From Geothrix edaphica (GTDB taxonomy: Bacteria; Acidobacteriota; Holophagae; Holophagales; Holophagaceae): a stretch of DNA of 64,000 bases. Below, in pieces: positions 4,436-53,169 of this stretch. The translations under genes and the position numbers were made by a program. Position 1 is the stretch's first letter. Each line of letters begins with the position of its first letter. The notes beneath the pieces were generated by a model that was not told the DNA's origin, searched no databases, and saw only the letters and a program-made list of their open reading frames with translations. Location of the stretch: positions 310,001-374,000 of the forward strand of contig NZ_BSDC01000001.1 in NCBI RefSeq assembly GCF_030268045.1, given 5' to 3'.

Positions 4436-5257
4436 ATGAGCAACCTGCGGGGACTCCTCGAGAGCATCAGCATCACGGACGTGGTCCAGATGCTCCACCT
4501 GAACAAGAAGACCGGCCAGCTGCTCCTGCAGAACGGCCGCTTCCAGGGCGTCATCTACGTGAGCGGCGGGGCGGTGGTCCACGCGGAGACGGGCCGGACC
4601 ACCGGCGAATCCGCTGCCTTCGAGCTCCTGGCCTGGGAGCGGGGCGAGTTCGAGTTCCAGGCGGTCCCGGTCAAGCCCGTGGGGAGCATCCGGAGGAGCG
4701 TGCCCGATCTGCTCATGGAATCGGCCCGCACCCTGGACACCCGCCGGCGCCTGGGGGCCTACTTCCCCTCCCTGGACGCGGTGCCCTGGACCTTCCTGCC
4801 CGAGCCCGCTCTCACGGCGGGCCTGAAGCTGTCCGCCGACGCCCTGAAGGCCATCCCGCACTTCGATGGCTACCAGGACTTCCATCAGGTGATGACCACC
4901 ACCCAGCTGAACGAGACGGCGGTGCTTGAAGCCGCCTTCGCCCTCCTGCAGGCGGAGCGTCTCCAGGTCTTCGAACCTGCCGTCCCCCTGGCGGTGGAGA
5001 CCCTGAAGACCGGCCTCTTCAAGAAGGGCGACCACGTGGAGCTGGGTGTCATCCACGAGTCCCGCTGGCGGGGCCTCCAGCCCTACAGCCACGGCCTCAT
5101 CACCCAGGTGAGGATCCAGTGGCGCGGCGGCGTGGCCCACGAGGATGTGCGCTTCGTCCAGGGGCTCGCGGATGGCGTGCTCGCCGCGCCCGAGCCCTTC
5201 CTCCAGAGCTGGGGCGTCGGCCCCTCCGACATCGTGGTGGTCCGACCCGCCCCCTGA
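4436..5257 (+). CDS. DUF4388 domain protein (PatA N-terminus-like)
   Basis: A 273-residue protein whose first about 100 residues match the DUF4388 pattern: GLLESISITDVVQMLHLNKK, then TGQLLLQNGRFQGVIYVSGG and the acidic-aromatic stretch WERGEFEFQ. This domain is common in Acidobacteriota, Myxococcota and cyanobacteria, often beside gliding, pilus or response-regulator functions, but no biochemical role is established. The C-terminal part (from about residue 110) has no family I recognise; it ends in a small beta-rich region (GDHVELGVIHESRWRG...). The start has GGAG five bases before ATG. It lies 41 bases ahead of the acyl-CoA ligase and may be cotranscribed with it. Confidence 0.75.
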   Translation: MSNLRGLLESISITDVVQMLHLNKKTGQLLLQNGRFQGVIYVSGGAVVHAETGRTTGESAAFELLAWERGEFEFQAVPVKPVGSIRRSVPDLLMESARTLDTRRRLGAYFPSLDAVPWTFLPEPALTAGLKLSADALKAIPHFDGYQDFHQVMTTTQLNETAVLEAAFALLQAERLQVFEPAVPLAVETLKTGLFKKGDHVELGVIHESRWRGLQPYSHGLITQVRIQWRGGVAHEDVRFVQGLADGVLAAPEPFLQSWGVGPSDIVVVRPAP

Positions 5258-5298
5258 CCTTCCCTCCCCGGAGCACGTCCTTTCCCTTGGAGCCAGCC

Positions 5299-7098
5299 AT
5301 GGTCCAGACCATCGCCGACCTGTTCTACCAGGCCTGTTCCTTCCAGTCCCCGGATGCGCTGGCCTATCGGAAGGGGGGCGTCTATGTGCCCATCTCCCAC
5401 CAGGAGCTGCAGGCCAGGGTGGAGCGCCTGGCCCTGGCCCTGGAGGCCCGGGGCCTGAAGGCGGGCGAGCCCGTGGCGCTCATCTGCGAGAACCGGCCCG
5501 AGTGGGCCGTGGTGGACTACGCCTGCGCCATCTCCGGCCTGCCCACCGTCCCGCTCTATCCCACCCTGAACGCGCCCCAGAGCGCCTTCATCCTCCGGCA
5601 CTCGGAGGCCCGCATCGTCTTCTGCTCCACCGCCGACCAGGCCCGGAAGGCGCTCACCGCCAAGGGACCGGACTCGGCGCTGACCTGGGTGGTGCAGATG
5701 GACGGCATTCCCGCCGATCCCTCCGTGATCCCCTTCTCCAGCCTCATGGCCGAGGGCGAGGCCCTGGAGGCCCGGCGCCCCGAGGTGCGGGCCTGGGCCC
5801 GCCAGCGGAAGGCGGAGGAGCTGCTGACCATCATCTACACCTCCGGCACCACCGGCGATCCCAAGGGCGCCATGCTCACCCACGGGAACCTGGTGTCCAA
5901 CGTGGAGCGCACCCTCCAGCTGCTGCAGCTCAAGAAGGGCGACCGCTGCCTGTCCTTCCTGCCCCTCTCCCACATCCTGGAGCGCATGGCGGGCCACTAC
6001 TCGACCATGCGCATCGGCGCGAGCATCTACTACGCGGAGAGCATCGCCACCGTGGGCGATGACCTCCAGGCCACCAAGCCCACCATCATCATCAGCGTGC
6101 CCCGCATCTACGAGAAGATCTACGCCCGGGTCCGCGAGGGCGTGGCCTCCAGCAGCATCGTGAAGCGGTTCATCTTCCACTGGGCCATGTGGGCCGGGGA
6201 CATGTCCGTGCCCTACCTGTACGAGAAGCAGAAGATCCCCCTCTGGCTCCAGTTCCAGCTCTGGTGGAGCCGCCACCTGGTCTTCCACAAGATCCTGGCC
6301 AAGACCGGCGGGAACATCCGCTTCGCCATCAGCGGCGGCGCGCCCCTGGCGCCCAAGGTCATGGCCTTCTTCTGGGCCATCGGCCTGCCCATCACCGAAG
6401 GCTACGGCCTCACGGAAACCAGCCCCGTGGTCTCCTTCAACCGCTTCGGCGAGGTGGTGCCGGGCAAGGTGGGGCGGCCCATCTACGACAGCTGGGAGGG
6501 CAAGCCCTACGTGAAGATCGCCGAGGACGGCGAGATCCTCGTCCAGGGCCCCAACGTGATGAAGGGCTACTGGAAGAACCCCGAGGGCACGGCGGAGGCC
6601 TTCGACAAGGACGGCTACTTCCGCACCGGCGACATCGGCGAGCTCAGCGCCCGGGGCCTCCTCAAGATCACCGACCGCAAGAAGGAGATCATCGTCACCA
6701 GTGGCGGCAAGAAGGTGGCGCCCCAACCCATCGAGGAACTGCTCAAGACCGACAAGTTCATCACCCAGGCCGTCCTGCTGGGCGACCGGCGCAACTTCAT
6801 CTCGGCCCTGCTCATCCCCAACTTCGACAGCCTCCACCGCTGGGCCCACCAGAAGAAGGTCCCCTTCTCCAACAACCGCGACCTGGTGGCCCGTCCCGAG
6901 GTGCACCAGCTGATGATGGAGCGGGTGGAGCAGATCAACCAGCAGCTCTCCAACTTCGAGCGGATCAAGAAGGTGGCCATCCTCGATCACGAGCTGAGCC
7001 TGGAGACCGGCCAGCTCACCCCCAGCCTCAAGGTGAAGCGCCGGGTGGTGAACGAGATGTACGCCACCCTCATCGAATCGCTCTACAAGGGGGCCTGA
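5299..7098 (+). CDS. Long-chain fatty acid--CoA ligase (AMP-forming)
   Basis: A 599-residue member of the ANL superfamily of the long-chain type (FadD15/FAA-like), making acyl-CoA from fatty acid, ATP and CoA via an acyl-adenylate. Motifs in order: P-loop YTSGTTGDPKGAMLTHGNL near residue 180, the GGAPLAPKVMAFF stretch, the adenine-binding EGYGLTETSPVVSFN, the hinge region DGYFRTGDIGEL and TDRKKEIIVTSGGKKVAPQP. The insert typical of long-chain enzymes (FHWAMWAGDMSVPYLYEKQK) is present. ATG at 5299 has TTGGAG seven bases upstream; the reading frame continues upstream but without family similarity. With fadH nearby it points to fatty-acid use. Transcription ends at the strong hairpin right after the stop. 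Confidence 0.9.
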   Translation: MVQTIADLFYQACSFQSPDALAYRKGGVYVPISHQELQARVERLALALEARGLKAGEPVALICENRPEWAVVDYACAISGLPTVPLYPTLNAPQSAFILRHSEARIVFCSTADQARKALTAKGPDSALTWVVQMDGIPADPSVIPFSSLMAEGEALEARRPEVRAWARQRKAEELLTIIYTSGTTGDPKGAMLTHGNLVSNVERTLQLLQLKKGDRCLSFLPLSHILERMAGHYSTMRIGASIYYAESIATVGDDLQATKPTIIISVPRIYEKIYARVREGVASSSIVKRFIFHWAMWAGDMSVPYLYEKQKIPLWLQFQLWWSRHLVFHKILAKTGGNIRFAISGGAPLAPKVMAFFWAIGLPITEGYGLTETSPVVSFNRFGEVVPGKVGRPIYDSWEGKPYVKIAEDGEILVQGPNVMKGYWKNPEGTAEAFDKDGYFRTGDIGELSARGLLKITDRKKEIIVTSGGKKVAPQPIEELLKTDKFITQAVLLGDRRNFISALLIPNFDSLHRWAHQKKVPFSNNRDLVARPEVHQLMMERVEQINQQLSNFERIKKVAILDHELSLETGQLTPSLKVKRRVVNEMYATLIESLYKGA

Positions 7099-22907: not shown

Positions 22908-23423
22908 TCAGCTTTTCGTCTTGGATGCAGCGGCGAGCTGTTCTTCGGTGAGGCCGAAGAGGGAGGCGACGGGGCGGCCGCGGAGGCTGGCCATGAGGTA
23001 GAGCTGGCCGCGGTGGTGGGCCTCGTGCTCGGCCATGGCCCTCAGCCATTTCCATGTGGCCATAGAAGCCCCGGCGGGGTTCACGCAGGGGGCCAGCAGG
23101 TCCGCGTCCGTGAGCGTGCCGAAGAGGGCCAGGGATTCCGCGTGGCAGCGGTCCAGGTAGGCGCGCACCCCGTCCAGGCCCGCGGCCAGCCCCCCTGAGA
23201 GTTCAACCCCGTGGCCCGGGTAGGCGCTGGGGCGGCCCCGCACGTTCTCCGCGTACATGAAGCGCTCCAGCCCAGCCAGGTGGCGGAACAGGTCGCCGAA
23301 GGTGAAGGCCCCCGGCACCGGCGCCCACTCCAGGTCCTCGGGCGCCAGCGCCTCCAGCACCCGCACCGTGCGGGACCGGGCGTTGCGCCAGTAGGCGAGG
23401 AAGGAAGGAGTGTCCTGGAGCAT
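22908..23423 (-). CDS. DinB-family protein
   Basis: A 171-residue DinB/YfiT-like four-helix protein. The metal-site histidines are visible in FGDLFRHLAGLERFM and in RAMAEHEAHHRGQLYLMASL (His-x3-His). Members are metal-dependent thiol S-transferases or have no known role. The start at ATG 23423 gives the family's usual length but has no ribosome site. GATAAT six bases before the ATG could be a -10 box, so it may be made as a leaderless message. Beyond its start the sequence becomes A+T-rich and foreign. Confidence 0.82.
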   Translation of the reverse strand: MLQDTPSFLAYWRNARSRTVRVLEALAPEDLEWAPVPGAFTFGDLFRHLAGLERFMYAENVRGRPSAYPGHGVELSGGLAAGLDGVRAYLDRCHAESLALFGTLTDADLLAPCVNPAGASMATWKWLRAMAEHEAHHRGQLYLMASLRGRPVASLFGLTEEQLAAASKTKS

Positions 23424-23587
23424 GGATGTATTATCCCGGGGCGCCTGAAATCGTAGATGAAGCTCGATCAATCATAATTAAAGCATTGTGGCCAAAATAT
23501 CATTGAGAGTTGCCAGATAAACAATAATGATTATGATTACACGAAATCAATTGATTTACCGTATCAATGCAGTAAGTGCTTAATGCA

Positions 23588-26326
23588 CTAAAATCCATAT
23601 TTCAATTTTCTAAGATGAAATGCCTCTTGGCCTCCATCAAGTATTTCTAATATGGCATTTCTAATTTTAGGTTGTTCTATTGCTCCTTTTGATGAAACCC
23701 AACCTTGCTCTGCATTGGCTTCAAAATAAAGCACTTGATCTGCGTCGCCATTCACGACAATATTCGCATTGTGGGTGGCAAAGATTATTTGTCTTCTATC
23801 CTTCCGCATGCGGAGTGCGGGGAGAACTTTGTCCCATAGGAATCTATTATTTAAATCATCTTCAGGCTGATCAATTACTAATGGTCGATTGTCATCGCTA
23901 TCAAGTAAAAGAGTCAGAAGAACACTTGTACGTTCTCCTCCCGAGAGTTTTTCCAGCCCACGCCATTCTCCATTTTCTAGCTCCTTTTCGATCAGGACTA
24001 GATCAGGGCACCAAATGGATCGAAGTCGCCATAAAAACTCTCCCTGAAGTTTCTCCCAAAGTGTGCTCTTAGTTGTATCTCCTAGCTCTAAACCTGAATA
24101 ATTGCTTGAATTTCTTGCAAATTTACAAAGTAAATCATGCATATTCTCGATTGGTTTGGTGCGCCGTTCGTTCCACCAGCGTGTAATTCCAACCTGCGCA
24201 AATGAAGTTAGAAATTCTCCTAATTCGTCCTGATTTCCTTGGGGTATAAATCGAATCCGGATATCCCTATACCTAGATTGTACCGTTTTGCCAACTTCTG
24301 TTAATGATTCTCGATATTTTTCTCGAAGCTCTAACCGCGAGTTCTCTGTTTGGGTTAGTATATTATCTAATTCTTCAAGTTCTTTTTTGGTTCGTTCATA
24401 TGATGATTTCAAATTTTCGTAATCCCTGGCAGACCGAGAGAGGGCGTCAAATTGGTCAAGATCTTCGGGCCGACCACCTTGTTGAACAAGCATTACAGCC
24501 AGTTGGTGCTTTAGTTCCCGCTCATGTGTTTCACCGACATCAACCGCTCGTTGTATACGATCATGAATTAATTTCTTGGTTTCTTGAATGTCATGGACGC
24601 TCGCTCCAAATTTATTAAAATCTTCGATTAGAGAACCATTATCGTCCGTCAGTAATTTAACCAATGTTGGTTCACTTATTTCTGGCATAACGAGATTTCT
24701 AACAGACTCGCTGAGGCCATAAATATTGGATTCCATACCCACAATGAATGATTGAAGATTCCTAAGACGTGAAGTATCACGTTGAATATTATGAAGATCG
24801 GCAATCCCAAGATCCTCGAATCGAACAAGAGCTAATTTGGCATTATTTGAAATGTTGAATGCCGACTCTTCCTCGGTAAGTCTTGAAAAAATACCAGTGC
24901 GTTTTTCAGAAAGTTCTTTCAGTTGATGGTTTTTTCCCCTTATTTCAGATAAGAGAGTGTCAAGTTTGGGCTTTTGATCAGGATCCAAACCATGGATGAC
25001 TTCAGCACGACCGAAGTCATCACCTGCAAGTGTCTTCAATTCACCCTGTGTAAAGAACCAAGCAGGCCAGTTTTCTTTGGTGGGTCGCGATGCGGATTCA
25101 TATGTGTCAGGCGGAACCGAAACTGAAATACTCCCTTCCATCCCGGCAAATCTATGCTGCCCACGCTCCAACACCTCACTGGATAACCGTCTGTCGGAAG
25201 GCATAGGTAATTGACAATTTGACCTCAAGCCATCTAAGAAGGTGGATTTTCCAGTCATACTTCCACCAATGATACAATTGAAATATGGACTAAAGTGGAA
25301 GGTTTCTCCTCCGGTTTTAGAAAAAAATGAAGTACTTGATTTGATTTCTACCCATCTCATCCATGGATGGGTCGGTACACCTGGATCGGGTAGGGATGGA
25401 AGTAAGCCGTAGCTGCCATCTTCCCGATCCCCAAATGCCAACCGTATTCGTGAGTCATTAGCTAGGAACGCTTGTTTCAAGGCGGCGACGGTTGGCTCAG
25501 CCAGCTTGATTAAACTCCATCGATTTCCAATGTCCTCGACGCTATATGCATCGCTTCCATGAAAAAAACCATGGCGAAGTTTCTGAGCCGCTGGGAGTAG
25601 CCATTGGCGAGTAGATAGGGTCGTCTCCAGGCTTTTATCATCGCCTAGTTCAATTCCGTGGAGGCAGTGTTTGGCCGACTGTTGTAGAACTTGGCTTTTT
25701 TGCTCTTGAAAAAAACCGTGATTCGAAAATGCATGAGGGGCTAGAACAATAAAATCCCAACCACCTTCAGCTTGTTTTAAGTTTTGGAGTCCATCATAGG
25801 TTTCATCAAATTTTTTGGGAGACATCTTAAGGCTGTTGCCTTCATGATATGGGGCAATCCCGCCCATTGAAGCATTATATGCTCGTGTGTATCTTTCTCT
25901 CCCGATCTCCGGATCGAACAGGAATAAAAAATGAACTCCAGCGGCTCCATCGCTTAAATTGGGTTCAAACCCAGGAAAGACTGCGAATATTTTTTCGCGA
26001 AATGGTATCTCATCATCATCGATACCCGAGTTCCATTCCTCGACAATCTCCCAAACTAAGGATAATTGAGGAGTTGCAAATGGATTATGAGGAGTCAAGC
26101 CAAGTACATGGATTCCCTTCTTGATAGATTTTTGCAGAAAGACACGTGCGTAGATTTTGGGGTCGAACCGCGCATCTATTGGACTGATTCCGACTTCCGA
26201 GGGTACCTTGGTCCGACCTCCTAGGTGGTCATCGAGCGTATGTAGGTGAAGGTCTGATCGATACCACCTTACCCCGGGAATAAGCCCGCCCCAACTTGGA
26301 GCTAGCTGCCGAATAAAGGGGCTCAC
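23588..26326 (-). CDS. PHP-domain / SMC-like ATPase fusion (TrlF-like), probable defence protein
   Basis: A 912-residue protein. Residues about 20-300 are a PHP phosphoesterase domain: metal-site D25-L-H27-L-H29 in YRSDLHLHTLDDH, GLTPHNPFATP (usual TDHN read as TPHN), FIVLAPHAFSNHG and HGSDAYSVEDIG. An ABC/SMC-type ATPase follows, split by a long coiled coil: Walker A CIIGGSMTGKST near 355, signature KLSGGERTS near 795, Walker B PLVIDQPEDDLNN near 820, and H-loop IIFATHNANI near 850. The GTG start follows AGGGAGGATTT. Codon use and base content (two sampled lines 35-38 % G+C) differ sharply from all neighbours: recent transfer. Related PHP-ATPases (TrlF) and the similar RloC/PrrC ATPase-nucleases suggest phage-triggered nucleic-acid cleavage, which is inference. 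Confidence 0.85.
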   Translation of the reverse strand: MSPFIRQLAPSWGGLIPGVRWYRSDLHLHTLDDHLGGRTKVPSEVGISPIDARFDPKIYARVFLQKSIKKGIHVLGLTPHNPFATPQLSLVWEIVEEWNSGIDDDEIPFREKIFAVFPGFEPNLSDGAAGVHFLFLFDPEIGRERYTRAYNASMGGIAPYHEGNSLKMSPKKFDETYDGLQNLKQAEGGWDFIVLAPHAFSNHGFFQEQKSQVLQQSAKHCLHGIELGDDKSLETTLSTRQWLLPAAQKLRHGFFHGSDAYSVEDIGNRWSLIKLAEPTVAALKQAFLANDSRIRLAFGDREDGSYGLLPSLPDPGVPTHPWMRWVEIKSSTSFFSKTGGETFHFSPYFNCIIGGSMTGKSTFLDGLRSNCQLPMPSDRRLSSEVLERGQHRFAGMEGSISVSVPPDTYESASRPTKENWPAWFFTQGELKTLAGDDFGRAEVIHGLDPDQKPKLDTLLSEIRGKNHQLKELSEKRTGIFSRLTEEESAFNISNNAKLALVRFEDLGIADLHNIQRDTSRLRNLQSFIVGMESNIYGLSESVRNLVMPEISEPTLVKLLTDDNGSLIEDFNKFGASVHDIQETKKLIHDRIQRAVDVGETHERELKHQLAVMLVQQGGRPEDLDQFDALSRSARDYENLKSSYERTKKELEELDNILTQTENSRLELREKYRESLTEVGKTVQSRYRDIRIRFIPQGNQDELGEFLTSFAQVGITRWWNERRTKPIENMHDLLCKFARNSSNYSGLELGDTTKSTLWEKLQGEFLWRLRSIWCPDLVLIEKELENGEWRGLEKLSGGERTSVLLTLLLDSDDNRPLVIDQPEDDLNNRFLWDKVLPALRMRKDRRQIIFATHNANIVVNGDADQVLYFEANAEQGWVSSKGAIEQPKIRNAILEILDGGQEAFHLRKLKYGF

Positions 26327-26407
26327 AAATCCTCCCTAATCAGAAATCTAATCTAGGGATATAGCACGGGCCTGATTGCCAGGCTGAATTTATCTGAAAA
26401 AAGGACG

Positions 26408-26502
26408 ATGAAAAATACAATTTGTGACTTGCAATTAGAATGGGCGACTGGAGATCAAATTGGAAAACTACTCAGTACTGAAGTAAAGACATTACGAATG
26501 CT
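26408..26502 (+). pseudogene. Cut-off start of a second foreign gene
   Basis: Within the same A+T-rich island, ATG at 26408 is preceded by AAAAGGACG and opens a reading frame with coding-like composition for about 31 codons (MKNTICDLQLEWATGDQIGK, then LLSTEVKTLRML). It then runs straight into the reverse complement of the last codons of topA, where base composition jumps back to host. This looks like the first part of a gene truncated by the event that placed the island here. It is too short to assign. Confidence 0.4.
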
Positions 26503-29037
26503 CTACCCCATCGGCTCCTCATGCCCGCACTTGGGGCAGATGAGTACCTGGATGGGGTCCTTGCCCCGGGGCTTGCGGGTCTTCTCGCCCATGCTGGGGT
26601 TCTTGCAAGCGGGGCAGGTGACGGGGACGGGCTTGTCCCAGGCGGTGAAGTCGCACTTGGGGTAGTTGGTGCAGCCGTAGAAGACCTTGCCGAAGCGGGT
26701 CTTGCGGGGGCTGAGGCCGCCGCCGCACTTGGGGCAGGGCACGGCCAGGATCTCCTTCTTCACCGTCTTGCAGGTCGGGTAGTCGATGCAGCAGATGAAT
26801 TCGCCGTAGCGGCCGTGGCGCTTCACGAAGTCCTTGCCGCAGTTGGGGCACTTCTCCCCGATGGGCTCGTCCGGCGGCACGGGGATGCCCTTGGGATCGG
26901 CCTTCACGATGCCCTTGCACTTGGGGTAGTTGGGGCAGGCCCAGAAGGGGCCCCACTGGCCCTTGCGCAGGTTCATGGGCGTGGTGCCGCAGAGCGGGCA
27001 CTCCGGCGCGTCCTCGGGCTCCTCCATCTTCTCCAGGTCCGCCGTGTAGTCGCACTTGTCCTTCTCGGCCTCGGCGCTGTAGTTGGTGCAGCCCACGAAG
27101 AGCCCGTTGCGGCCGATGCGCTTGAGCAGCACGCCCGGGTGCTTCTTCCGGTCGCCGCACTTGGGGCACTTCTCGCCCGTGGGCACGCCGGCCTTCAGGT
27201 TCTGCATGTCCTGCCCGGCAGCGGCCAGGGCCTGCTCGAAGGGGCCGTAGAAGTCGGTCATGGCCTTCTTGAAGGTGAGCTTGCCGTCCTCGATGAGGTC
27301 GAGGTTGCCCTCCATGCCCGAGGTGTACTTGCTGTCCAGCAGGCGCGGGAAGCCCTGGATGAGCAGCTCGGTGACCACCATGCCCAGCTCCGTGGGCTTG
27401 AAGCGGCCCTCGTGCTTCTTCACGTAGTCCCGGTCCTGGATGGTGCTGATGATGCTGGCGTAGGTGGAGGGGCGGCCGATGCCGTCCTCCTCCAGTTCCT
27501 TCACCAGGGTGGCTTCGTTGAAGCGGGCGGGGGGCTTGGTGAACTGCTGGTCGGCGTCGAGCTGCTCCAGCTTCAGGGCCTCGCCCAGCTTGAGGGCCGG
27601 TAGCAGGGCCTCGTCCTCGTCCTCCTCGTCGCCCTTGGTGGCGTCGGCGATGGACTCGGCCTCGGTCTCCGTCTTCTCGGCGCGGTAGACCGCCAGCCAG
27701 CCGGGGAAGCGCTCGATCTCGCCCTTGGCCTCGAAGAGCGCCGTCTCCTTGCCGACTTCCGCTTCCGTCTGCACCACCGTCTCGTCGAAGCGCGCGGCCT
27801 CCATCTGCGAGGCCATGGTGCGCCGCCAGATGAGGGCGTAGAGGCGGAACTGATCCGGTTCGAGGTGCCCGCGCAGGGACTCGGGCGTGCGGGTGATGTC
27901 CGTGGGGCGGATGGCCTCGTGGGCGTCCTGGGCGCCGGCCTTGCCGGTGTAGACCCGGGCCTTGGCGGGCAGGTACTCCTTGCCGTACTTCTTCGCGATG
28001 AACTCGCGGGTGGCGTCGATGGCCTCGGGGGCCATGCGGGGCGAATCCGTGCGCATGTAGGTGATGAGGCCCACGGGGCCCTCGCCGAAGTCCACGCCCT
28101 CGTACAGCCGCTGGGCGTTCTGCATGGTGCGGCTCACGCTCATCTTCAGCTTCTGGGCCGATTCCTGCTGCAGCTTGGCGGTGGTGAAGGGGGCGGCGGG
28201 GTTCCGCTTCTTCTCCTTGGTCTCCAGGCTGGTGACCGTGTAGGTGGCCTTCTCCAGCTTGGCCTTCAGGTCCTTGGCCTGGACGGCGTCCGCCACGCGA
28301 CGCTTGGTCTCCTTGTTGCCCAGCTGCAGGGCCTCGCCGCCCACCTTCACCAGCTTCATCCAGAAGCTGGGGGGCAGCTTGGCGGCGAACCGGCCCTTCA
28401 GCACCCAGTACTCGACGGGGTTGAAGGCCAGGATCTCCTTCTCGCGGTCCACGATGATGCGCACGGCCACGCTCTGGACGCGGCCGGCCGAGAGGCCCCG
28501 GCGCACCTTGTCCCAGAGCACCTGGCTCACCTTGTAGCCCACCAGGCGGTCCAGCACGCGGCGGGCCCGCTGGGCGTCCACCAGCTTCTTATTAATGACC
28601 GTGGGCGCGGCCATGGCCTTCTGGATGCCCGCCGGGGTGATCTCGTTAAACAGGACCCGGCTCACCGGCAGGCTCTTGGGCGGCTTGATGGCCTCCAGCA
28701 GGTGCCAGCTGATGGCCTCCCCCTCGCGGTCGGGGTCGGTGGCGAGCACGAGCTCGGAGGCGGACTTGGCGGCGGTGCGCAGCTCCCGGACCACCTTCTC
28801 CTTGGCCGGGCTGATCTCGTATTCCTCCTGGAACCCGTTCTCGATGTCCACGCCCAGCTTGCGGGGCAGATCCCGGATGTGGCCCACGGAGGCCATGACC
28901 TTGTACCCCTTGCCCAGGTACTTGGTGATGGTCTTGGCCTTGGAGGGGCTTTCGACGATCACGAGCTTCGAGCCCTTCACGGTGGGCTCGGCGGGGCTTG
29001 GTGCACCGGCATCGTCTTGCTTCAGCTTCCTGGCCAC
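26503..29037 (-). CDS. topA: DNA topoisomerase I
   Basis: An 844-residue type IA topoisomerase that relaxes negative supercoils. The Toprim domain is at the start (KLVIVESPSKAKTITKYLGK and ATDPDREGEAISWHL with its DxDxEG-like acid cluster); the active-site Tyr is in GLITYMRTDSPR near residue 330; HEAIRPTDI follows. The C-terminus has at least five Cys4 zinc ribbons (CPKCGDRKKHPG, CPLCGTTPMNLR, CPNCGKDFVKRHG, CPKCGGGLSPRK, CPACKNPSMGEK, last pair CPKCGH), more than in E. coli. An acidic linker (EEDEDEALL) is seen near residue 480. Its 3' end marks the edge of the foreign island. Possibly cotranscribed after dprA (48-base gap). Confidence 0.96.
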   Translation of the reverse strand: MARKLKQDDAGAPSPAEPTVKGSKLVIVESPSKAKTITKYLGKGYKVMASVGHIRDLPRKLGVDIENGFQEEYEISPAKEKVVRELRTAAKSASELVLATDPDREGEAISWHLLEAIKPPKSLPVSRVLFNEITPAGIQKAMAAPTVINKKLVDAQRARRVLDRLVGYKVSQVLWDKVRRGLSAGRVQSVAVRIIVDREKEILAFNPVEYWVLKGRFAAKLPPSFWMKLVKVGGEALQLGNKETKRRVADAVQAKDLKAKLEKATYTVTSLETKEKKRNPAAPFTTAKLQQESAQKLKMSVSRTMQNAQRLYEGVDFGEGPVGLITYMRTDSPRMAPEAIDATREFIAKKYGKEYLPAKARVYTGKAGAQDAHEAIRPTDITRTPESLRGHLEPDQFRLYALIWRRTMASQMEAARFDETVVQTEAEVGKETALFEAKGEIERFPGWLAVYRAEKTETEAESIADATKGDEEDEDEALLPALKLGEALKLEQLDADQQFTKPPARFNEATLVKELEEDGIGRPSTYASIISTIQDRDYVKKHEGRFKPTELGMVVTELLIQGFPRLLDSKYTSGMEGNLDLIEDGKLTFKKAMTDFYGPFEQALAAAGQDMQNLKAGVPTGEKCPKCGDRKKHPGVLLKRIGRNGLFVGCTNYSAEAEKDKCDYTADLEKMEEPEDAPECPLCGTTPMNLRKGQWGPFWACPNYPKCKGIVKADPKGIPVPPDEPIGEKCPNCGKDFVKRHGRYGEFICCIDYPTCKTVKKEILAVPCPKCGGGLSPRKTRFGKVFYGCTNYPKCDFTAWDKPVPVTCPACKNPSMGEKTRKPRGKDPIQVLICPKCGHEEPMG

Positions 29038-46266: not shown

Positions 46267-47028
46267 CTAGGCCCCGGTCGGCCCGTTGAAGGCCGAGTCG
46301 AAGTCGGCCTGCCGGGCCAGGGTCTCGGGGCAGCCCAGGTCCAGGCGCAGGGGCGTGACGCTGGCGAAGCCCTCGAACACGGCTCCGGCGTCGCTGCCGG
46401 GGGCCTTGACATAGGTGGGGCCCGCGTCGCCGCCGATCCAGAAGTAGGGCGTGTTCCGGGGATCCGCCCGGCGCTCCACCAGGTCGTGGTAGGCGCGGCT
46501 GTCCTGGCCCGTGAGGCGGAAGCCCTTGGGCTCGCCCTGGGGGAAGTTCACGTTCCAGATGCGGTTGCCGGGCAGGTCCATGGCCTCCCAGCGCTCCAGG
46601 AAGCGGCCGATCCAGGGCTCCGCCTGCTCCAGCGAGCCCTGGGGGTGGATGGAGAAGGCCGCGGCGCGGGCGCCCTGGAGCCGGCCCTCGAAGGCCGCGC
46701 CCACGGTGCCCGAATAGAACACGTCCTCGCCCAGGTTGAAGCCGTGGTTGATGCCGGAGAGCACCCAGTCCGGCCGGCGGTCCAGCACCTCGCAGACGCC
46801 CAGCAGCACGCAGTCCACGGGAGTGCCGTCGCAGGCGTGGCGGTCGGGGCCGATCTCGTGCAGGCGGAGGATGTTGTGCAGGCTGAGGGCCGAGGAGATG
46901 GCCGAGCGGTTGCGGTCCGGCGCCACGGTGACCACCCGGCCGAAGCGGGAGGCCACCCGGGCCAGGGCCGCCAGGCCCGGGGCCCAGAGGCCGTCGTCGT
47001 TGGTGAGCAGGATCAGGCGTTCGGGCAT
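46267..47028 (-). CDS. surE: 5'/3'-nucleotidase SurE
   Basis: A 253-residue SurE, a metal-dependent nucleotidase/exopolyphosphatase. Metal site: LILLTNDDGLWAPGLAALAR (Asp-Asp), then VVTVAPDRNRSAISSALSLH (Ser) and LSGINHGFNLGEDVFYSGTV (Asn). The product is in the usual length range. It lies 28 bases after the GGDEF-hemerythrin gene and is followed closely by acyP and apt. Confidence 0.94.
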   Translation of the reverse strand: MPERLILLTNDDGLWAPGLAALARVASRFGRVVTVAPDRNRSAISSALSLHNILRLHEIGPDRHACDGTPVDCVLLGVCEVLDRRPDWVLSGINHGFNLGEDVFYSGTVGAAFEGRLQGARAAAFSIHPQGSLEQAEPWIGRFLERWEAMDLPGNRIWNVNFPQGEPKGFRLTGQDSRAYHDLVERRADPRNTPYFWIGGDAGPTYVKAPGSDAGAVFEGFASVTPLRLDLGCPETLARQADFDSAFNGPTGA

Positions 47029-47056: not shown

Positions 47057-48184
47057 TCAATCCTGGGCCAGGTCCCCGAAGAAGCGCCGGTCCCAGACCA
47101 TGATGTGGCCCTTCACGAGGTCCAGGGCCAGGAAGCCGAGGATGGCGGGCAGGTCCGTGCTCACGCCGCCCATCTCCTGCTGGAGGATCTTGGCCTTGGC
47201 GACGAGGCGGTTGTGCTCCTGGGCATGCGCGGGCAGGTCCGGGTGGCCCACCCGGGCGAGGATGGCCTCCTCGTCGTGGAAATGCTGGGCCACGTGGGCG
47301 ATGAGCAGCTGCATCCGGAGCTTCGCCTCTTCGGGATAGCGGCCGCTGGTGATGGCGGACAGCAGGCTGTTGGAGAGGCTGTAGAGCTGCTGGTGCTGGT
47401 GGTCGATCTCCGGATGGCCGCATTCCAGGCGGGGATCCCAGGTGAGGGCGAGGATGGAGGCTTCGCCCTCACCGTGGGGCTCTGCCGCTGTCAGGGAGGC
47501 CTCGGTGCGGTTCCGGCCCCGCTCCTTGGCCCGGTAGAGCGCCTCGTCCGCCCGGCCGACCCAGGCGTCGAGCTCTTCCAGCCCCTGGTGCTGCGCCACC
47601 CCCAGGCTGATGGTCACCATGCCCACCTGGGGGATGGAGCGGGCCTCCACCGCCTTCCGGATCTTCTCCGCCAGGATCGTGGCCCCGGCCAGGGTCGTGG
47701 CGGGGCAGAGCACGACGAACTCCTCGCCGCCCCAGCGCGCCAGGGCGTCCGAGGCCCGGAGCTGGCCGCGGACGGTGCCCGTGATGGATTTCAGCACTTC
47801 GTCCCCCACCCCGTGGCCGAAGGTGTCGTTGACGTGCTTGAACAGGTCCAGGTCGAGCATGATGAGGCTCAGGGCCGCGTCCCCGCGACCGGACAGGGCG
47901 ATGAGCTGGGCTGCGCTGTCCTCGAACCAGCGGCGGTTCCAGGCGCCGGTGAGGGGGTCGGTTCCGGCGACCTGCTCCATCTGGTCCAGGGCCCGGCGGA
48001 GCTCTGAGTTCGCGAGCTCGCTGGCCGCCTGGGCCCGGGTGAGGTCCTCCAGCCGGCGCCGGAGCTCGGGATCCGGCCCGGCGGCCCGGAGGCGCCGGAT
48101 CCAGTGCCCGAGGGCCGCGCCGGCCGCGAGGCCAAGGGCGAAAGCCGCGGGGAGCGCCAGGGGGTTCGTCGCGTCCAGGGTCAT
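47057..48184 (-). CDS. Diguanylate cyclase with C-terminal bacteriohemerythrin domain
   Basis: A 375-residue protein: one N-terminal transmembrane helix (LPAAFALGLAAGAALGHWIR), a short coiled linker, a GGDEF domain with GGEEF at residues 152-156 and an inhibitory RxxD site (RASD, 143-146), then a hemerythrin domain. Its diiron ligands are visible: His264 (DHQHQQLY), His301 and Glu305 (HFHDEE), His320 and His324 (HAQEH), His360 and Asp365 (GHIMVWD). It should make c-di-GMP under control of oxygen or NO bound at the diiron site. The hemerythrin follows rather than precedes GGDEF, the less common order. It may lead the surE cluster. Confidence 0.9.
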   Translation of the reverse strand: MTLDATNPLALPAAFALGLAAGAALGHWIRRLRAAGPDPELRRRLEDLTRAQAASELANSELRRALDQMEQVAGTDPLTGAWNRRWFEDSAAQLIALSGRGDAALSLIMLDLDLFKHVNDTFGHGVGDEVLKSITGTVRGQLRASDALARWGGEEFVVLCPATTLAGATILAEKIRKAVEARSIPQVGMVTISLGVAQHQGLEELDAWVGRADEALYRAKERGRNRTEASLTAAEPHGEGEASILALTWDPRLECGHPEIDHQHQQLYSLSNSLLSAITSGRYPEEAKLRMQLLIAHVAQHFHDEEAILARVGHPDLPAHAQEHNRLVAKAKILQQEMGGVSTDLPAILGFLALDLVKGHIMVWDRRFFGDLAQD

Positions 48185-48286
48185 GGGCAGCCTCGGCTTC
48201 CGTCCACCCTACCCGTTCAGCGCCCGGAACCTGGATGATTCTGGGCCGCCCGGTTCCTGCCAGGATGGAACCCACCCGACCGGCCC

Positions 48287-48892
48287 ATGGATCCCGACCT
48301 CTCGCTGACCTCCGCCCTCCCGATCCCCGAAGGGGAGGGTGGGGCCGCAGGTGTTTCGGCGGGTCGTCTCGAGGTTCTGGCCCGGCTCCGTGAAAGGATC
48401 GTGGCCTTCGCGGCATCCCGGGGTGCAGGCGCCCATGCGGAGGACCTGGCGCAGGAGGTGCTGGTGCTGCTCCATACGAAGTACGGCCATCTGGAACGGG
48501 CGGAGGACCTGGTCCCCCTGGCCTTCCAGATCCTGCGCTTCAAGCTGGCGGCCCACCGCCGCCGCGCCGCCCGCCGCGGCGAGTACGACGCCGTGGACCT
48601 GGACGCCTTCCCGCCGCCCTCGGACGCGCCGGACCCGGCCATGGTGCTGGAGCGCAAGGAGCTGCTGGCCCGGCTCATGGGGGGCATCGCCCAGATGGGG
48701 GAGCGCTGCCGGGAGCTGTTCCGCCTCAAGCTCCAGGGCCGCACCTTCGCGGAGATCCAGGGCCTCCTGGGCGCAGCCAGCCTCAATACGGTCTACACCT
48801 GGGACCACCGCTGCCGGAAGCAGCTGCTCGACACGCTGGGCGGGCGCTGGGAAGGCGTCGGAAGCGGACCGGGCGGAAGGGGGGCGCCATGA
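48287..48892 (+). CDS. ECF-like RNA polymerase sigma factor
   Basis: A 201-residue sigma factor. Region 2: LRERIVAFAASRGAGAHAED, LAQEVLVLLHTKYGHLERAE, PLAFQILRFKLAAHRRRAAR; region 4: GIAQMGERCRELFRLKLQGR, TFAEIQGLLGAASLNTVYTW, DHRCRKQLLDTL. ATG at 48287 lacks a strong ribosome site; its reading frame is divergent from the GGDEF gene. It overlaps the next gene by four bases. The pair plus the VIT/VWA gene forms one plausible operon. Confidence 0.82.
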   Translation: MDPDLSLTSALPIPEGEGGAAGVSAGRLEVLARLRERIVAFAASRGAGAHAEDLAQEVLVLLHTKYGHLERAEDLVPLAFQILRFKLAAHRRRAARRGEYDAVDLDAFPPPSDAPDPAMVLERKELLARLMGGIAQMGERCRELFRLKLQGRTFAEIQGLLGAASLNTVYTWDHRCRKQLLDTLGGRWEGVGSGPGGRGAP

Positions 48893-49890
48893 AGCGCGCC
48901 GAGGCCGAGAAGCTGCTGGGCGGCCATGCCGCCGGGATCCTCACCGAGGCCGAGCGGCGCGCGCTGTTTGAGGCGGCCCTGGAGCATCAGGGCCTGTTCG
49001 ATGCCCTCATGGACGAGGAGGCCCTGCGGGAGCTGCTGGCGGATCCCGCGGCCCGGGTCCAGGTGCTGGCGGCCCTGGCGCCCTCCGCAGCCGCGCCCCC
49101 CAGGCTCGTGCCCTTCTGGCGGCGCCCGGGCGTGATCGGCGCCGCGGCCGGGATCCTCGTGGCCACCACCGCGGGCCTGGCGATCCTGCGCAGTCCCGAG
49201 GCCCAGCCGCCGGCGGCGAAGGTGGCCCCTGCGCCTGCCCCGGCCACGGCACCGGCACCGGCACAGGCCACCAACCCCGCGCCCGAGGCCCAGGCGATCG
49301 CGGCCCCGCCGCCGAAGGCGGCCCGGCGGACGGTGGGGATCGAGGCCCCCCGGACTCTGGACACCCCGGCCGCTCCGGCTCCGGCACCCCCGGCTCCGGC
49401 CCAGGTCGCCGGTGCCGTCGCGCCCCGGGAAGAGGCCCGGGCCCAGGCGGCGGAGGTGAAGCAACTGGAGGTCCGGGACCAGGTGTCCAGGAAGGCGGAG
49501 GCGGCGGGGATGAACCGGGCCGCCCTGCTGGAGGCGCGGGATTCCGGGTCGGCCCCGGCGCCCCGCGTGGCCGCGAAGGCAGCCGCGCCCGCGCCCCAGG
49601 CCGCGGCGCCGGTGTGGACCCTCGACACCCTGCCGGACGGGTCCACCCGCGTGACCGTGAGCGCCCCCCGGGCCGCCCATGTGGTGCTGCTCCGCCGCGG
49701 CAGCTCGGGGGTCGAGGTCATCCGGCCCGCGGCCGGGCCGGAGCCCTGGCTGTTCCAGCTCCGCCTGGCGCCCGGCGACGTCCTGGACCTCTACGTGCTG
49801 AGCGGCCCCGCGGCCGACGCGGCGAGGCTGCCGGAAACCGGCCCCGTGGACGGGTTCCGGGCCCGGATCCACCCGCCCGCGAAAAAATAA
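48889..49890 (+). CDS. Anti-sigma-like membrane protein with Pro/Ala-rich linker
   Basis: A 333-residue protein. N-terminal about 80 residues (MKRAEAEKLLGGHAAGILTE, AERRALFEAALEHQGLFDAL) resemble the cytosolic zf-HC2-free anti-sigma fold; a transmembrane helix follows (GVIGAAAGILVATTAGLAIL, near residue 100); then a long Ala/Pro-rich spacer (residues 108-240) and a compact C-terminal beta domain (WTLDTLPDGSTRVTVSAPRA, HVVLLRRGSSGVEVIRPAAG). The layout and the ATGA overlap with the sigma gene suggest an anti-sigma factor with a periplasmic sensor part. The start and domain reading are inference; no CxxC is present. Confidence 0.7.
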   Translation: MKRAEAEKLLGGHAAGILTEAERRALFEAALEHQGLFDALMDEEALRELLADPAARVQVLAALAPSAAAPPRLVPFWRRPGVIGAAAGILVATTAGLAILRSPEAQPPAAKVAPAPAPATAPAPAQATNPAPEAQAIAAPPPKAARRTVGIEAPRTLDTPAAPAPAPPAPAQVAGAVAPREEARAQAAEVKQLEVRDQVSRKAEAAGMNRAALLEARDSGSAPAPRVAAKAAAPAPQAAAPVWTLDTLPDGSTRVTVSAPRAAHVVLLRRGSSGVEVIRPAAGPEPWLFQLRLAPGDVLDLYVLSGPAADAARLPETGPVDGFRARIHPPAKK

Positions 49891-49974
49891 TCCGCTCCCT
49901 TGAAAGGGGCGCCCTCCCGGCGGCATTCCCTCCTGAACCGCGCCCTGCCGGCGCGGCCCCTCCGGGAGGAACCC

Positions 49975-52350
49975 ATGCCGCTGCGCCGGTCCACCACTGC
50001 CCTGTTCGCCTGCTGTGCAGGTCTCGCCGTGTCCTTCACCGGGGACGTCCAGGCCCGGAGCCGGCCCGGAACCAACCCCAGGCTCCAGGCCCCCGGCGGC
50101 GAGTCCGCGGACGCCACCCTGTCGCCCTACTTCTTCGTGAAGGGCGGGGACGCCTCGGTGGACCAGCTGCCCCTGAAGTCCACCTCCGCCAAGGTGGCCA
50201 TCGCCGGCGTCATCGCCGACGTGACCGTGACCCAGGTCTACCGCAATACCGGAAGCAAGCCCCTGGAGGCTCTCTACGTGTTCCCGGGCTCCACGCGGTC
50301 GGCGGTCTACGGGATGACCATGCGCATCGGCGAGCGGGTGCTCAAGGCCCAGATCAAGGAGCGCGGCCAGGCCCGGGCCGACTACGAGCAGGCGAAGCAG
50401 CAGGGCCGCAGCGCCTCGCTGCTGGAGCAGCACCGGCCCAACGTGTTCCAGATGAACGTGGCCAACATCCTGCCCGGCGATGAGATCCGCGTGGAGCTCC
50501 GCTACACCGAGCTGCTGGTCCCCACGGAGGGCACGTACAGCTTCGTCTATCCCGCGGTGGTGGGCCCGCGCTACGCCGGCAAGGCAGGCACGGAGTCCAG
50601 CACGGGCGAGACCTGGGTGGCCAACCCCTATACCCACGCCGGGGAGAAGCCCGCCACCACCTTCGACCTGGAGGTGAAGCTGTCCGCGGGCCTGCCCATC
50701 CAGCGCATGGCCTGCGACACGCACAAGACGTCCATCGCCTACGACGGCAAGACGGACGCCACGCTGCGGCTGGACCCCAGCGAAGCCCACGGCGGCAACC
50801 GCGATGTCATCGTGAAGTACCAGCTGGCCGGGAACGCTGTGCAGTCGGGGCTGCTGCTGGACCAGGGCAAGGACGGGAACACCTTCCTGCTCATGGCCCA
50901 GCCGCCCAAGCGCGTCACGCCGAAGGATCTGCCGCCCCGCGAGTTCGTCTTCATCATGGATGTCTCCGGCAGCCAGATGGGCTTCCCCATCGAGGTGTCC
51001 AAGGTGCTCATGAAGGAGATGATCCAGGGCCTGCGGCCCCAGGACCTCTTCAACGTGATGGTCTTCGAGGGCACCTCGGCCTTCTGGTCGCCCAGCGGGT
51101 CCCAGCACGCCACGCCTGAGGCCACGCAGCAGGCCCTGGCCTTCGTGGGCTCGCAGCACGGGGGCGGCGGGACGGAGCTGGGCAGTGCGCTGCGCAAGGC
51201 CCTGGGCCTGCCCCGGGTGCCCGGCATCTCCCGCACCTTCGTGGTCTCCACGGATGGCTACATCAGCGCCGACGGCCAGGTCTTCGATCTCATCCGCAAG
51301 AACCTGGGCGCCGCCAACCTCTTCGCCTTCGGCATCGGCAGCTCCGTGAACCGCCACCTCATCGAGGGCATGGCCCACGCGGGGCAGGGCGAGGCCTTCG
51401 TCATCACCAAGCCCGAGCAGGCCGCCCTTGAGGCCGAGCGCTTCCGCGCCTATGTGTCCTCGCCCGTGCTGACCAACGTGAAGCTCACCACGAACGGCTT
51501 CCACGTCCAGGACCTGGAGCCCCTGCAGCTGCCGGACGTGCTGGCGGAGCGGCCGGTCATCTGCCTCGGCAAGTGGACGGGCGAAGCCAAGGGCACGGTC
51601 ACGCTCTCGGGCATGACCGCCGCCGGCCCCTGGAGCCAGACCTTCGAGGTGGGGAAGGTGAGGGACCGCGACCACGGCGCCCTGCGCCAGCTCTGGGCCC
51701 GCCAGCGCATCCAGGCCCTGTCGGACTACGACCAGTTCGGCGCGGATGAGGGCCGCACGGCGGAAGTGACGCGCCTGGGCCTCGCCTACCACCTGCTGAC
51801 GGCCTACACCTCCTTCGTGGCGGTGGACACCCAGGTGCGGAACGCGGGCGGCGGAAGCACAACCGTCACCCAGCCCCTGCCCCTGCCCGAAGGCGTGTCC
51901 GACGCGGCGGTGGGCGGCCTGGCCAGCCAGTCCGTGGCCTATGCGCCGGCCCCGATGCAGCGGAAATACACCGCGTCCCCCGCCGCCGCCGGAGAAGCCC
52001 TGGCCGAGGACCGGGCAGCCCGCCGGGAGGTCCGCCAGGCGGAGCCCAAGGCCCGCCCCACGCTGCGCATCCTCGCCTTCTCGGGGATCACCGGCACCTC
52101 CGACCCGGCCTCCCTCCGCCGTGAGCTTGAGGCCCGCCTGAAGGACCCGGCCCTGGTGGCGGCGCTGGCCAGCCTGCCCGCCGGCACGGACCTGGCCCTC
52201 CAGGTGGACGCCTCCGGCCAGGTGGTGGCGGCGACCTTCAGCCGGGCCTTCCCCGGGGCTGCCCAGGCCAAGGCCCTGATCCTGGTCTGGCGCCTGCGGA
52301 GCTGGACGGGCCGCATGGCGGGGCAGCTCGACCTCACCCTGGGTATTTAG
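49975..52350 (+). CDS. VIT and von Willebrand A domain protein, secreted
   Basis: A 791-residue protein with a signal peptide (about 27 residues). After it comes a VIT domain (VAIAGVIADVTVTQVYRNTG, KPLEALYVFPGSTRSAVYGM, KQQGRSASLLEQHRPNVFQM), then a vWA domain whose metal site reads EFVFIMDVSGSQMGFPIEVS near residue 329 (D-x-S-x-S), and a long C-terminal region. This is the inter-alpha-trypsin-inhibitor layout. ATG at 49975 follows GGGAGGAACCC. It is the probable third gene of the sigma/anti-sigma set, so an envelope-stress role is plausible. Confidence 0.88.
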   Translation: MPLRRSTTALFACCAGLAVSFTGDVQARSRPGTNPRLQAPGGESADATLSPYFFVKGGDASVDQLPLKSTSAKVAIAGVIADVTVTQVYRNTGSKPLEALYVFPGSTRSAVYGMTMRIGERVLKAQIKERGQARADYEQAKQQGRSASLLEQHRPNVFQMNVANILPGDEIRVELRYTELLVPTEGTYSFVYPAVVGPRYAGKAGTESSTGETWVANPYTHAGEKPATTFDLEVKLSAGLPIQRMACDTHKTSIAYDGKTDATLRLDPSEAHGGNRDVIVKYQLAGNAVQSGLLLDQGKDGNTFLLMAQPPKRVTPKDLPPREFVFIMDVSGSQMGFPIEVSKVLMKEMIQGLRPQDLFNVMVFEGTSAFWSPSGSQHATPEATQQALAFVGSQHGGGGTELGSALRKALGLPRVPGISRTFVVSTDGYISADGQVFDLIRKNLGAANLFAFGIGSSVNRHLIEGMAHAGQGEAFVITKPEQAALEAERFRAYVSSPVLTNVKLTTNGFHVQDLEPLQLPDVLAERPVICLGKWTGEAKGTVTLSGMTAAGPWSQTFEVGKVRDRDHGALRQLWARQRIQALSDYDQFGADEGRTAEVTRLGLAYHLLTAYTSFVAVDTQVRNAGGGSTTVTQPLPLPEGVSDAAVGGLASQSVAYAPAPMQRKYTASPAAAGEALAEDRAARREVRQAEPKARPTLRILAFSGITGTSDPASLRRELEARLKDPALVAALASLPAGTDLALQVDASGQVVAATFSRAFPGAAQAKALILVWRLRSWTGRMAGQLDLTLGI

Positions 52351-52440: not shown

Positions 52441-53169
52441 ATGCGAAGGCACCTGGGAGTGGCCTTGATGCTGACCCTTGGGGGCTGCAACCCGGAACCC
52501 GCCCGACCCGCCGCCCCTCCCCCGGTGGTGGAGCCGGTGCTTGCCGAGGCCAGGATGCACATGGTGCGGGACCAGATCGTGGCCCGGGGCATCACGGATC
52601 CCCGGGTGCTCGAGGCCATGACCCGGGTGCCCCGGCACGAGTTCGTCCCCGCGGCGCAGCGCGGGGAGGCCTACGAGGACTGGCCCCTGCCCATCGGCTA
52701 CGGCCAGACCATCTCCCAGCCCTACATCGTGGCCTTCATGACCGCCGCCCTGGGGCCCGGGCCCGGGGACCGCGTGCTGGAGATCGGCACCGGCTCGGGC
52801 TACCAGGCCGCCGTGCTGTCCTGCCTGGTGGCCGAGGTCTACACCGTGGAGATCGTGGACCCCCTGGCCCGGCGCGCCGAGGCGGACCTGAAGCGGCTCG
52901 GCTACGCCAATGTGAAGGTCCGCGCCGGGGATGGCCACCACGGCTGGCCCGAGGCCGCCCCCTTCGACGCCATCATCGTCACCTGTGCCCCCGAGCAGGT
53001 CCCCCAGGCCCTGGTGGAGCAGCTCAGGGAGGGGGGCCGCATGATCATCCCCGTGGGCTCCCAGTGGGGGGCCCAGGAGCTGTACCTGCTGCGGAAGACG
53101 CCCACGGGGATGCAGCGGCAGGGGGTGCTGCCCGTGCGGTTCGTGCCCATGGTGAAGGGCCGTTCCTGA
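52441..53169 (+). CDS. pcm: Protein-L-isoaspartate O-methyltransferase with a lipoprotein signal
   Basis: A 242-residue protein. From about residue 38 it is a PIMT: MVRDQIVARGITDPRVLEAM, LPIGYGQTISQPYIVAFMTA, RVLEIGTGSGYQAAVLSCLV, PFDAIIVTCAPEQVPQALVE and PVRFVPMVKG. It methylates and so repairs isoaspartyl residues. The first 16 residues, MRRHLGVALMLTLGGC, form a lipobox with Cys16, so as read it would be exported and lipid-anchored, where SAM should be scarce. ATG at 52558 (MHMVRDQI) would make a cytosolic form. A GGGTAC-CTTC-GTACCC hairpin abuts the first ATG and there is no good ribosome site, so the start is unsure. Confidence 0.88.
   Translation: MRRHLGVALMLTLGGCNPEPARPAAPPPVVEPVLAEARMHMVRDQIVARGITDPRVLEAMTRVPRHEFVPAAQRGEAYEDWPLPIGYGQTISQPYIVAFMTAALGPGPGDRVLEIGTGSGYQAAVLSCLVAEVYTVEIVDPLARRAEADLKRLGYANVKVRAGDGHHGWPEAAPFDAIIVTCAPEQVPQALVEQLREGGRMIIPVGSQWGAQELYLLRKTPTGMQRQGVLPVRFVPMVKGRS

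Follow-up and report, generated by a model that had tools for sequence, protein, structure and literature searches.

In a window of 64,000 nucleotides from Geothrix edaphica (Holophagaceae, Acidobacteriota; contig NZ_BSDC01000001.1, positions 310,001 to 374,000), three tandem genes encode a sigma factor of the extracytoplasmic function (ECF) type, a membrane protein and a protein with VIT and VWA domains (Table 1; coordinates are those of the window). Our data suggest that this locus is probably an ECF sigma/anti-sigma switch, driving the VIT/VWA gene, a DUF4139 gene and, from a promoter inside the sigma open reading frame (ORF), its own anti-sigma gene. Gene order, homology, a sequence element with fixed spacing, the fixation of rare codons and the covariation of the element with the sigma/membrane pair were computed. 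A first-pass annotation had described a sigma factor, a membrane protein with an Ala/Pro spacer and a beta domain, and a VIT/VWA protein in tandem, and this is confirmed by ORFs, domain profiles and a structure model.

A common element at three sites

The element found before the VIT/VWA gene has the general form TGAAAGR-N15-NCAT. Upstream regions of VWA genes were aligned for 33 Holophagaceae rows, one of which is a second copy of the window, leaving 32 distinct rows. All 32 carry the element, as do 13 of 14 loci elsewhere in which the VWA gene is linked to the sigma/membrane pair; within 1 kb of unlinked VWA genes it is found in 0/18 cases. The block TGAAAGG...GCATTCCC accompanies the VWA gene even where this is separated from the membrane protein gene by other genes, and a second VWA lineage (see below) shows an identical core with the same 15-base spacing upstream. 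In 100 loci (L121-L220, 1.22 Mb) the pattern occurs 105 times, compared to 1-10 times for four wrong spacings and 0-2 times for scrambled cores.

Many of these 105 matches lie in sigma ORFs. In the window the intragenic element covers the codons for RERIVAFAAS in the region 2 helix of sigma, ~470 bases before the anti-sigma start. Sigma sequences were gathered by protein profile, independently of the element, which resulted in 89 distinct rows; 4 are gapped at the element and 85 were scored. GAAAGG-N15-NCAT is present in 85/85 gap-free rows (43 from Holophagaceae, 42 from others), and the base 5' of GAA is a T in 68 of them. On codon level, GAA for Glu, AGG for Arg and NCA at the third site are each found in 85/85 rows. 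Elsewhere in the same sigma genes GAA makes up 33% of Glu, AGG 7% of Arg and GCA 6% of Ala codons; the respective shares in the genes of the window are 0.159, 0.040 and 0.023. Where Ala is replaced by Thr or Ser at the third site, the CA is kept in the DNA. The top four columns for codon bias among 104 scored are the three element codons and the preceding Arg. Since rare codons are invariant in the intragenic element, the constraint acts on DNA.

We lean towards the view that these region 2 codons are frozen as the sigma factor's own promoter in Acidobacteriota and Nitrospirota. Active sigma would then make anti-sigma and no extra full-length sigma, resulting in an autoregulatory loop with overlapping codes. 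If true, the element would clearly illustrate, in two phyla, how the promoter specificity of a gene product can constrain the sequence that encodes it. It seems rather unlikely that the site binds the sigma-holoenzyme without being a productive anti-sigma promoter, and acts as a pause site or roadblock limiting sigma or as the start of an N-terminally shortened sigma. Its location within the ORF, far from the anti-sigma start, would fit this, as would intragenic sigma sites, mostly inactive or pausing, described in PMC10771440. However, the intragenic element shares spacing and core with sites at promoter distance before two other genes, and it is oriented toward the anti-sigma gene.

The G. 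edaphica genome holds five matches to TGAAAGR-N15-VCAT and none to the reversed control. Apart from the VIT/VWA and the intragenic sigma site, one match lies 5' of a gene elsewhere in the genome that encodes a DUF4139 protein with predicted export (PF13598, 49.6 bits, cut-off 31.8); it ends 43 bases from the start of that protein. The same three sites are found in each of six other genomes of the genus searched, where they make up 18 of 36 pattern matches (control 5). The element before DUF4139 covaries with the sigma/anti-sigma pair, as it is present in 37/39 rows with the pair vs 2/22 rows without. Pair-less genomes of the same genus lacking the DUF4139 element are G025, G031, G035, G043 and G045. 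For this comparison, the presence of sigma was assigned by membrane and sigma profile matches (G027 by membrane and VWA matches, G062 by a sigma match), G065 was counted as two rows and G071 is outside the tree. Two of 30 loci had no anchor for the upstream reading (G008 was then read, G026 left out), and G015, with 50 bases upstream, was left out.

It is very improbable that the element serves a different sigma or some other regulator and that the neighbourhood is incidental, given its absence from unlinked VWA genes, the DUF4139 counts and its fixation in the sigma's own ORF in every scored row. Genome G023, which keeps the DUF4139 element though no sigma/anti-sigma was found, would agree with such a regulator.

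Several observations weigh against a sigma-driven regulon of this kind. Locus L148 has a linked VWA gene without the element. Two of the five matches in G. edaphica are antisense inside ORFs and chance-like, and 18 of the 36 matches in the six relatives fall outside the three sites. The Fisher test for the DUF4139 covariation (p 8e-12) includes no tree correction; in the DUF4139 tree 4-5 independent pairs agree and 0 oppose, which is not significant alone (sign test, p ~0.06). G023 and G009 (64% complete), likewise of the same genus, have the DUF4139 element with no sigma found, and G062 and G063 have sigma with no element before DUF4139. Autoregulation from the region upstream of the sigma gene was considered as well and rejected, as no TGAAAG element is found there.

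In G071 (L109, L132) the pair adjoins two genes that both have the element upstream, one for a DUF4349 protein and one for a DUF4139-like protein. The latter protein was named by resemblance to the DUF4139 protein of G. edaphica and is a fragment with no Pfam match above cut-off. Both are likely an alternative target set.

The sigma factor and its putative anti-sigma factor

The sigma protein scores 47.0 bits against TIGR02937 (sigma70-ECF), with a cut-off of 42.9. Regions r2 and r4 are both detected by Pfam, each under the gathering score, and the family profile matches solved ECF sigmas at E 4e-6, which are its sole solved relatives at E ≤ 1e-3. Regions 2 and 4 without region 3 place the protein among the ECF sigmas. 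The block TGCCAGGATGGAA 5' of the gene is conserved in the alignment of relatives and could represent a housekeeping -10 region. CAGGATGG is found in 22/37 Holophagaceae loci with one exact copy in the G. edaphica genome, and TATGAT-like words stand 5' of the sigma gene in Bryobacterales.

The membrane protein has no match in Pfam or NCBIfam. A full-length structure model was built from 35 relatives. The predicted local distance difference test (pLDDT) is ~91 for the N-terminal helical domain and ~95 for the C-terminal beta sandwich, and the spacer is mostly disordered. The latter comprises ~140 residues, 74 of them Ala or Pro, and differs in length between relatives. In principle, 140 residues are long enough to cross the peptidoglycan and reach the VIT/VWA protein, as the first-pass annotation had suggested. 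By far the best conserved portion is the cytoplasmic one; the alignment across lineages extends through the transmembrane helix with 53% identity, and the extracytoplasmic parts show no alignment between lineages. Weak DUF4384-like matches are seen in the extracytoplasmic part of one relative in another family and of one in Nitrospira. Foldseek with the whole protein gave nothing at E ≤ 1e-3, the best rows being mostly Ig-like folds at E ≥ 5e-3. Based on the model, domain layout and conservation pattern correspond to what a sensor-type anti-sigma factor should look like.

The N-terminal domain was also modelled alone from 72 rows. In a search of the PDB using Foldseek, 13 of 22 matches are chains of complexes in which RslA, MucA or RsiW is bound to sigma. 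With VIA-align the top five rows are all anti-sigma entries at Z 6.7 to 3.9 (all below 8), and unrelated rows reach 3.7 at most. In both searches the matched chains were taken as anti-sigma chains from their length and the entry titles. As two aligners agree, this domain may have an anti-sigma fold, though every single match is weak. Distant relatives (L158, L165, L172, L180) match zf-HC2 at E 0.02-0.48, all under the Pfam cut-off. Such a fold is called into question by the Foldseek E-values, all 1.1 or worse, by the RskA_N profile, which gives three sub-threshold matches and none in the G. edaphica genome, and by a sequence search against solved anti-sigmas, which returned no match for the membrane protein. 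For an RskA-type protein encoded next to a sigma-like gene (G131), the N-terminal model gave a weak profile match that spans no more than model positions 40-75, and this match was disregarded.

Anti-sigma factors of the ZAS subgroup have a zinc-binding H-x3-C-x2-C motif. The N-terminal domain of the membrane protein contains no cysteine and is therefore not placed in this subgroup. Taken together, neighbourhood and structural matches suggest that the membrane protein is very probably the anti-sigma factor of the adjacent ECF sigma, to which we infer that it binds.

According to the proposed switch, the membrane protein would hold sigma at the membrane via its cytoplasmic helical domain, and the variable extracytoplasmic domain on the long Ala/Pro tether presumably receives an envelope signal. 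The signal would free sigma, which would recognise TGAAAGR-N15-NCAT promoters before VIT/VWA and DUF4139 and start transcription there, the target proteins presumably being exported. The element in its own ORF would be read too, leading to transcription of the anti-sigma gene and negative feedback. In this manner inhibition would be restored without more full-length sigma, while basal sigma would originate from a housekeeping-type promoter further upstream.

Table 1. Features of the locus. The gene order is ECF sigma, membrane protein and VIT/VWA, all three on the plus strand, then PCMT.
Feature	Position	Strand	Basis or remark
Conserved block TGCCAGGATGGAA 5' of sigma gene	48258..48270	+	alignment of relatives; putative function
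ECF sigma factor gene	48287..48892	+	201 aa; ORF list, TIGR02937, family profile matches
Intragenic element TGAAAGG-N15-GCAT, proposed sigma-dependent promoter for anti-sigma gene	48391..48416	+	codons E36 to S44
Membrane protein gene, proposed anti-sigma factor	48889..49890	+	333 aa; overlaps sigma gene by ATGA
N-terminal helical domain, residues 1-67	48889..49089	+	anti-sigma-domain-like; most conserved part
Single transmembrane helix, residues 80-101	49126..49191	+	predicted; Arg-rich on N-terminal side
Ala/Pro-rich spacer, residues 102-240	49192..49608	+	mostly low confidence in model
C-terminal seven-strand beta-sandwich domain, Ig-like, residues 241-333	49609..49887	+	structure model
Element TGAAAGG-N15-GCAT, proposed sigma-dependent promoter of VIT/VWA gene	49901..49926	+	alignment and counts in relatives
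Leader between element and VIT/VWA start	49927..49974	+	G+C-rich hairpin and ribosome site
VIT/VWA protein gene	49975..52350	+	791 aa; predicted exported; MIDAS residues intact
VIT domain, residues 67-177	50173..50505	+	Pfam 2e-36, 124.8 bits, above gathering score
VWA domain, residues 323-483	50941..51423	+	VWA_3 2e-20, 73.7 bits, above gathering score

Neighbourhood in relatives and the VIT/VWA protein

Genome contigs were scanned with the N-terminal domain of the membrane protein alone, and the 80 best of 150 relatives obtained were retained. They derive from Holophagaceae, Bryobacterales, Solibacteraceae, Nitrospira, Nitrospirales and two oddly labelled metagenome-assembled genomes (MAGs); the family labels of loci L121-L200 were assigned by hand. 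Each of these best loci (80/80) has a homologue of the window sigma immediately 5' of the membrane protein gene. Counting loci with at least 1.5 kb downstream or with a VWA gene found (14 of the 80 were too short and left out), 27/33 Holophagaceae and 13/33 others have a VIT/VWA gene within 5 kb in the same orientation. The gene arrangement is conserved far beyond chance.

The three-gene module of the first-pass annotation is thus retained in part. It recurs in Acidobacteriota and Nitrospirota, but only the sigma/membrane pair is obligatory; VWA is frequently missing or set apart by inserted genes. The genes being rarely neighbours, which had been named as speaking against a module, does not apply to Holophagaceae and partly applies elsewhere. 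The pair occurs with no VWA gene nearby in 20/33 non-Holophagaceae loci as well as in G047 and G048; some genomes have further genes inserted between membrane protein and VWA, and others lack VWA. Among 77 genomes of Holophagaceae, matches were obtained for VWA in 45, for the membrane protein in 47 and for sigma in 58; weak matches to other ECF sigmas are included in the sigma count. A scan of the phylum detected the membrane protein in at least 17/197 genomes, a lower bound because at most 29 candidates were scored per genome.

Among 44 VIT/VWA proteins placed in a tree, those linked in Holophagaceae group within a set of proteins of which several are encoded beside exosortase Q- or K-like genes and two-component regulators. 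A very long branch separates them from the linked proteins found in Bryobacterales, Nitrospirales and other groups. A single clade for all 26 linked rows is rejected (approximately unbiased test, p-AU 2.3e-9). With linked VWAs in two deep clades, the link to the sigma pair was therefore made or remade at least twice, and one sigma/anti-sigma family beside two VWA lineages argues for a functional tie. According to the tree of sigma and N-terminal domains, the VWA neighbour was gained or lost repeatedly. As VWA is often absent or separated and has its own promoter-like element, it looks like a sigma target and not like a fixed third component.

Somewhat doubtful in our view is a single signalling complex of all three proteins, in which the VIT/VWA protein would bind to the beta domain that follows the spacer and set the release of sigma. 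The pair's association with two distant VWA lineages would suit such a complex, and so would an in-frame fusion of the two proteins in MAG G041 (see below). It is compatible with the switch, as one protein could be both target and feedback sensor. However, the pair persists in the loci mentioned above with no VWA nearby, and the extracytoplasmic domains that would be bound do not align between lineages.

Two genomes have an unusual layout. In G041 (L090 2082-3038, and L159) an in-frame fusion joins the first 204 residues of the membrane protein to the VIT/VWA C-terminal domain; what lies between is missing, by real deletion or assembly fault. In L105 (G047), positions 4540-6985, there is no VIT/VWA gene between membrane protein and PCMT, and the pair and the DUF4139 element remain.

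The ORF list gives a TTG at 49900 as VIT/VWA start; the ATG at 49975 is better supported by a GGGAGG ribosome site and the alignment of relatives. The leader hairpin folds strongly, although pair changes in it are few, and its CCTCC could pair with the ribosome site. Distant relatives retain a hairpin of differing sequence. In the metal ion-dependent adhesion site (MIDAS), DxSxS, Thr400 and Asp427 are invariant across 28 rows. Export of the VIT/VWA and DUF4139 proteins is predicted from their N-terminal sequences.

TIGR03788 sortase targets carry a C-terminal sorting signal. The VIT/VWA protein reaches 400.7 bits against TIGR03788, under the cut-off of 551.65, and lacks an LPXTG motif. Its highest 19-residue hydropathy mean is 1.46 (residues 726-744), and no sortase or exosortase is among the adjacent genes examined (GGDEF-hemerythrin, PCMT). 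The protein is related to these targets, yet no member.

Comparison with known systems and flanking genes

The locus resembles the RskA-SigK, RsiW-SigW, MucA-AlgU and RslA-SigL pairs by the two-gene overlap and a small sigma without region 3, and the membrane protein resembles their anti-sigmas by an N-terminal helical domain, one transmembrane helix and an extracytoplasmic C-terminus. In contrast to those, it has no zinc ligands and no RskA_N match, and bears an Ala/Pro tether with a beta domain. The locus further differs by the sigma-type element inside the sigma ORF and by VIT/VWA and DUF4139 as proposed targets.

Sigma-type promoter sequences within coding regions are discussed in PMC10771440, for sigma-E of S. 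coelicolor, and PMC13171946, for a sigV promoter inside cabp. Unlike in these cases, the site presented here is part of the ORF of the very sigma that would recognise it, and in two phyla it is fixed through rare codons; the accessible parts of both papers do not describe a site inside a sigma's own ORF. Likewise, the accessible part of PMC3174227 holds nothing on this module. A literature search, which covers subscription papers thinly, found no paper in which an ECF sigma controls VIT/VWA or DUF4139 genes. For a family in Acidobacteriota and Nitrospirota, our analysis predicts the sigma, its inhibitor, the promoter sequence and a regulon of three sites. VIT/VWA and DUF4139, predicted exported families of unclear bacterial function, would be tied to one envelope switch.

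TIGR03788 sortase/exosortase targets with two-component regulators share the VIT-VWA domain order with the window protein. Its closest relatives in other Acidobacteriota are of this kind, several of them (L203-L205, L209, L211) adjoining exosortase Q- or K-like genes, three of which were scanned. Several are also beside a histidine kinase and a response regulator; here a similar protein is combined with a different type of regulator. The window protein differs by its score under the cut-off, the lack of LPXTG and of an adjoining sortase gene, and its tie to the sigma pair. Profile matches are also seen to the vertebrate VIT/VWA proteins PARP4 (E 3e-30) and ITIH4 (E 1e-26). Unlike ITIH and PARP4, the window protein is bacterial, predicted to be exported and has a different C-terminal domain.

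A generic promoter and terminator scan gave no match. Downstream, PCMT (protein repair methyltransferase, 52441-53169) has an N-terminal hydrophobic stretch ending in LGGC, resembling an exported protein or lipoprotein, an unusual feature in an S-adenosylmethionine enzyme. On the minus strand (47057-48184) and divergent from sigma, a GGDEF diguanylate cyclase fused to a hemerythrin domain is encoded, a possible oxygen-linked second-messenger enzyme. It is followed on this flank of the module by what we take to be a SurE homologue (46267-47028, minus strand). Further away in the window, the stretch 24001-26000 has 43% G+C compared to ~70% in the remainder, and the host codon model calls no gene in 23423-26503; this stretch is possibly foreign DNA.

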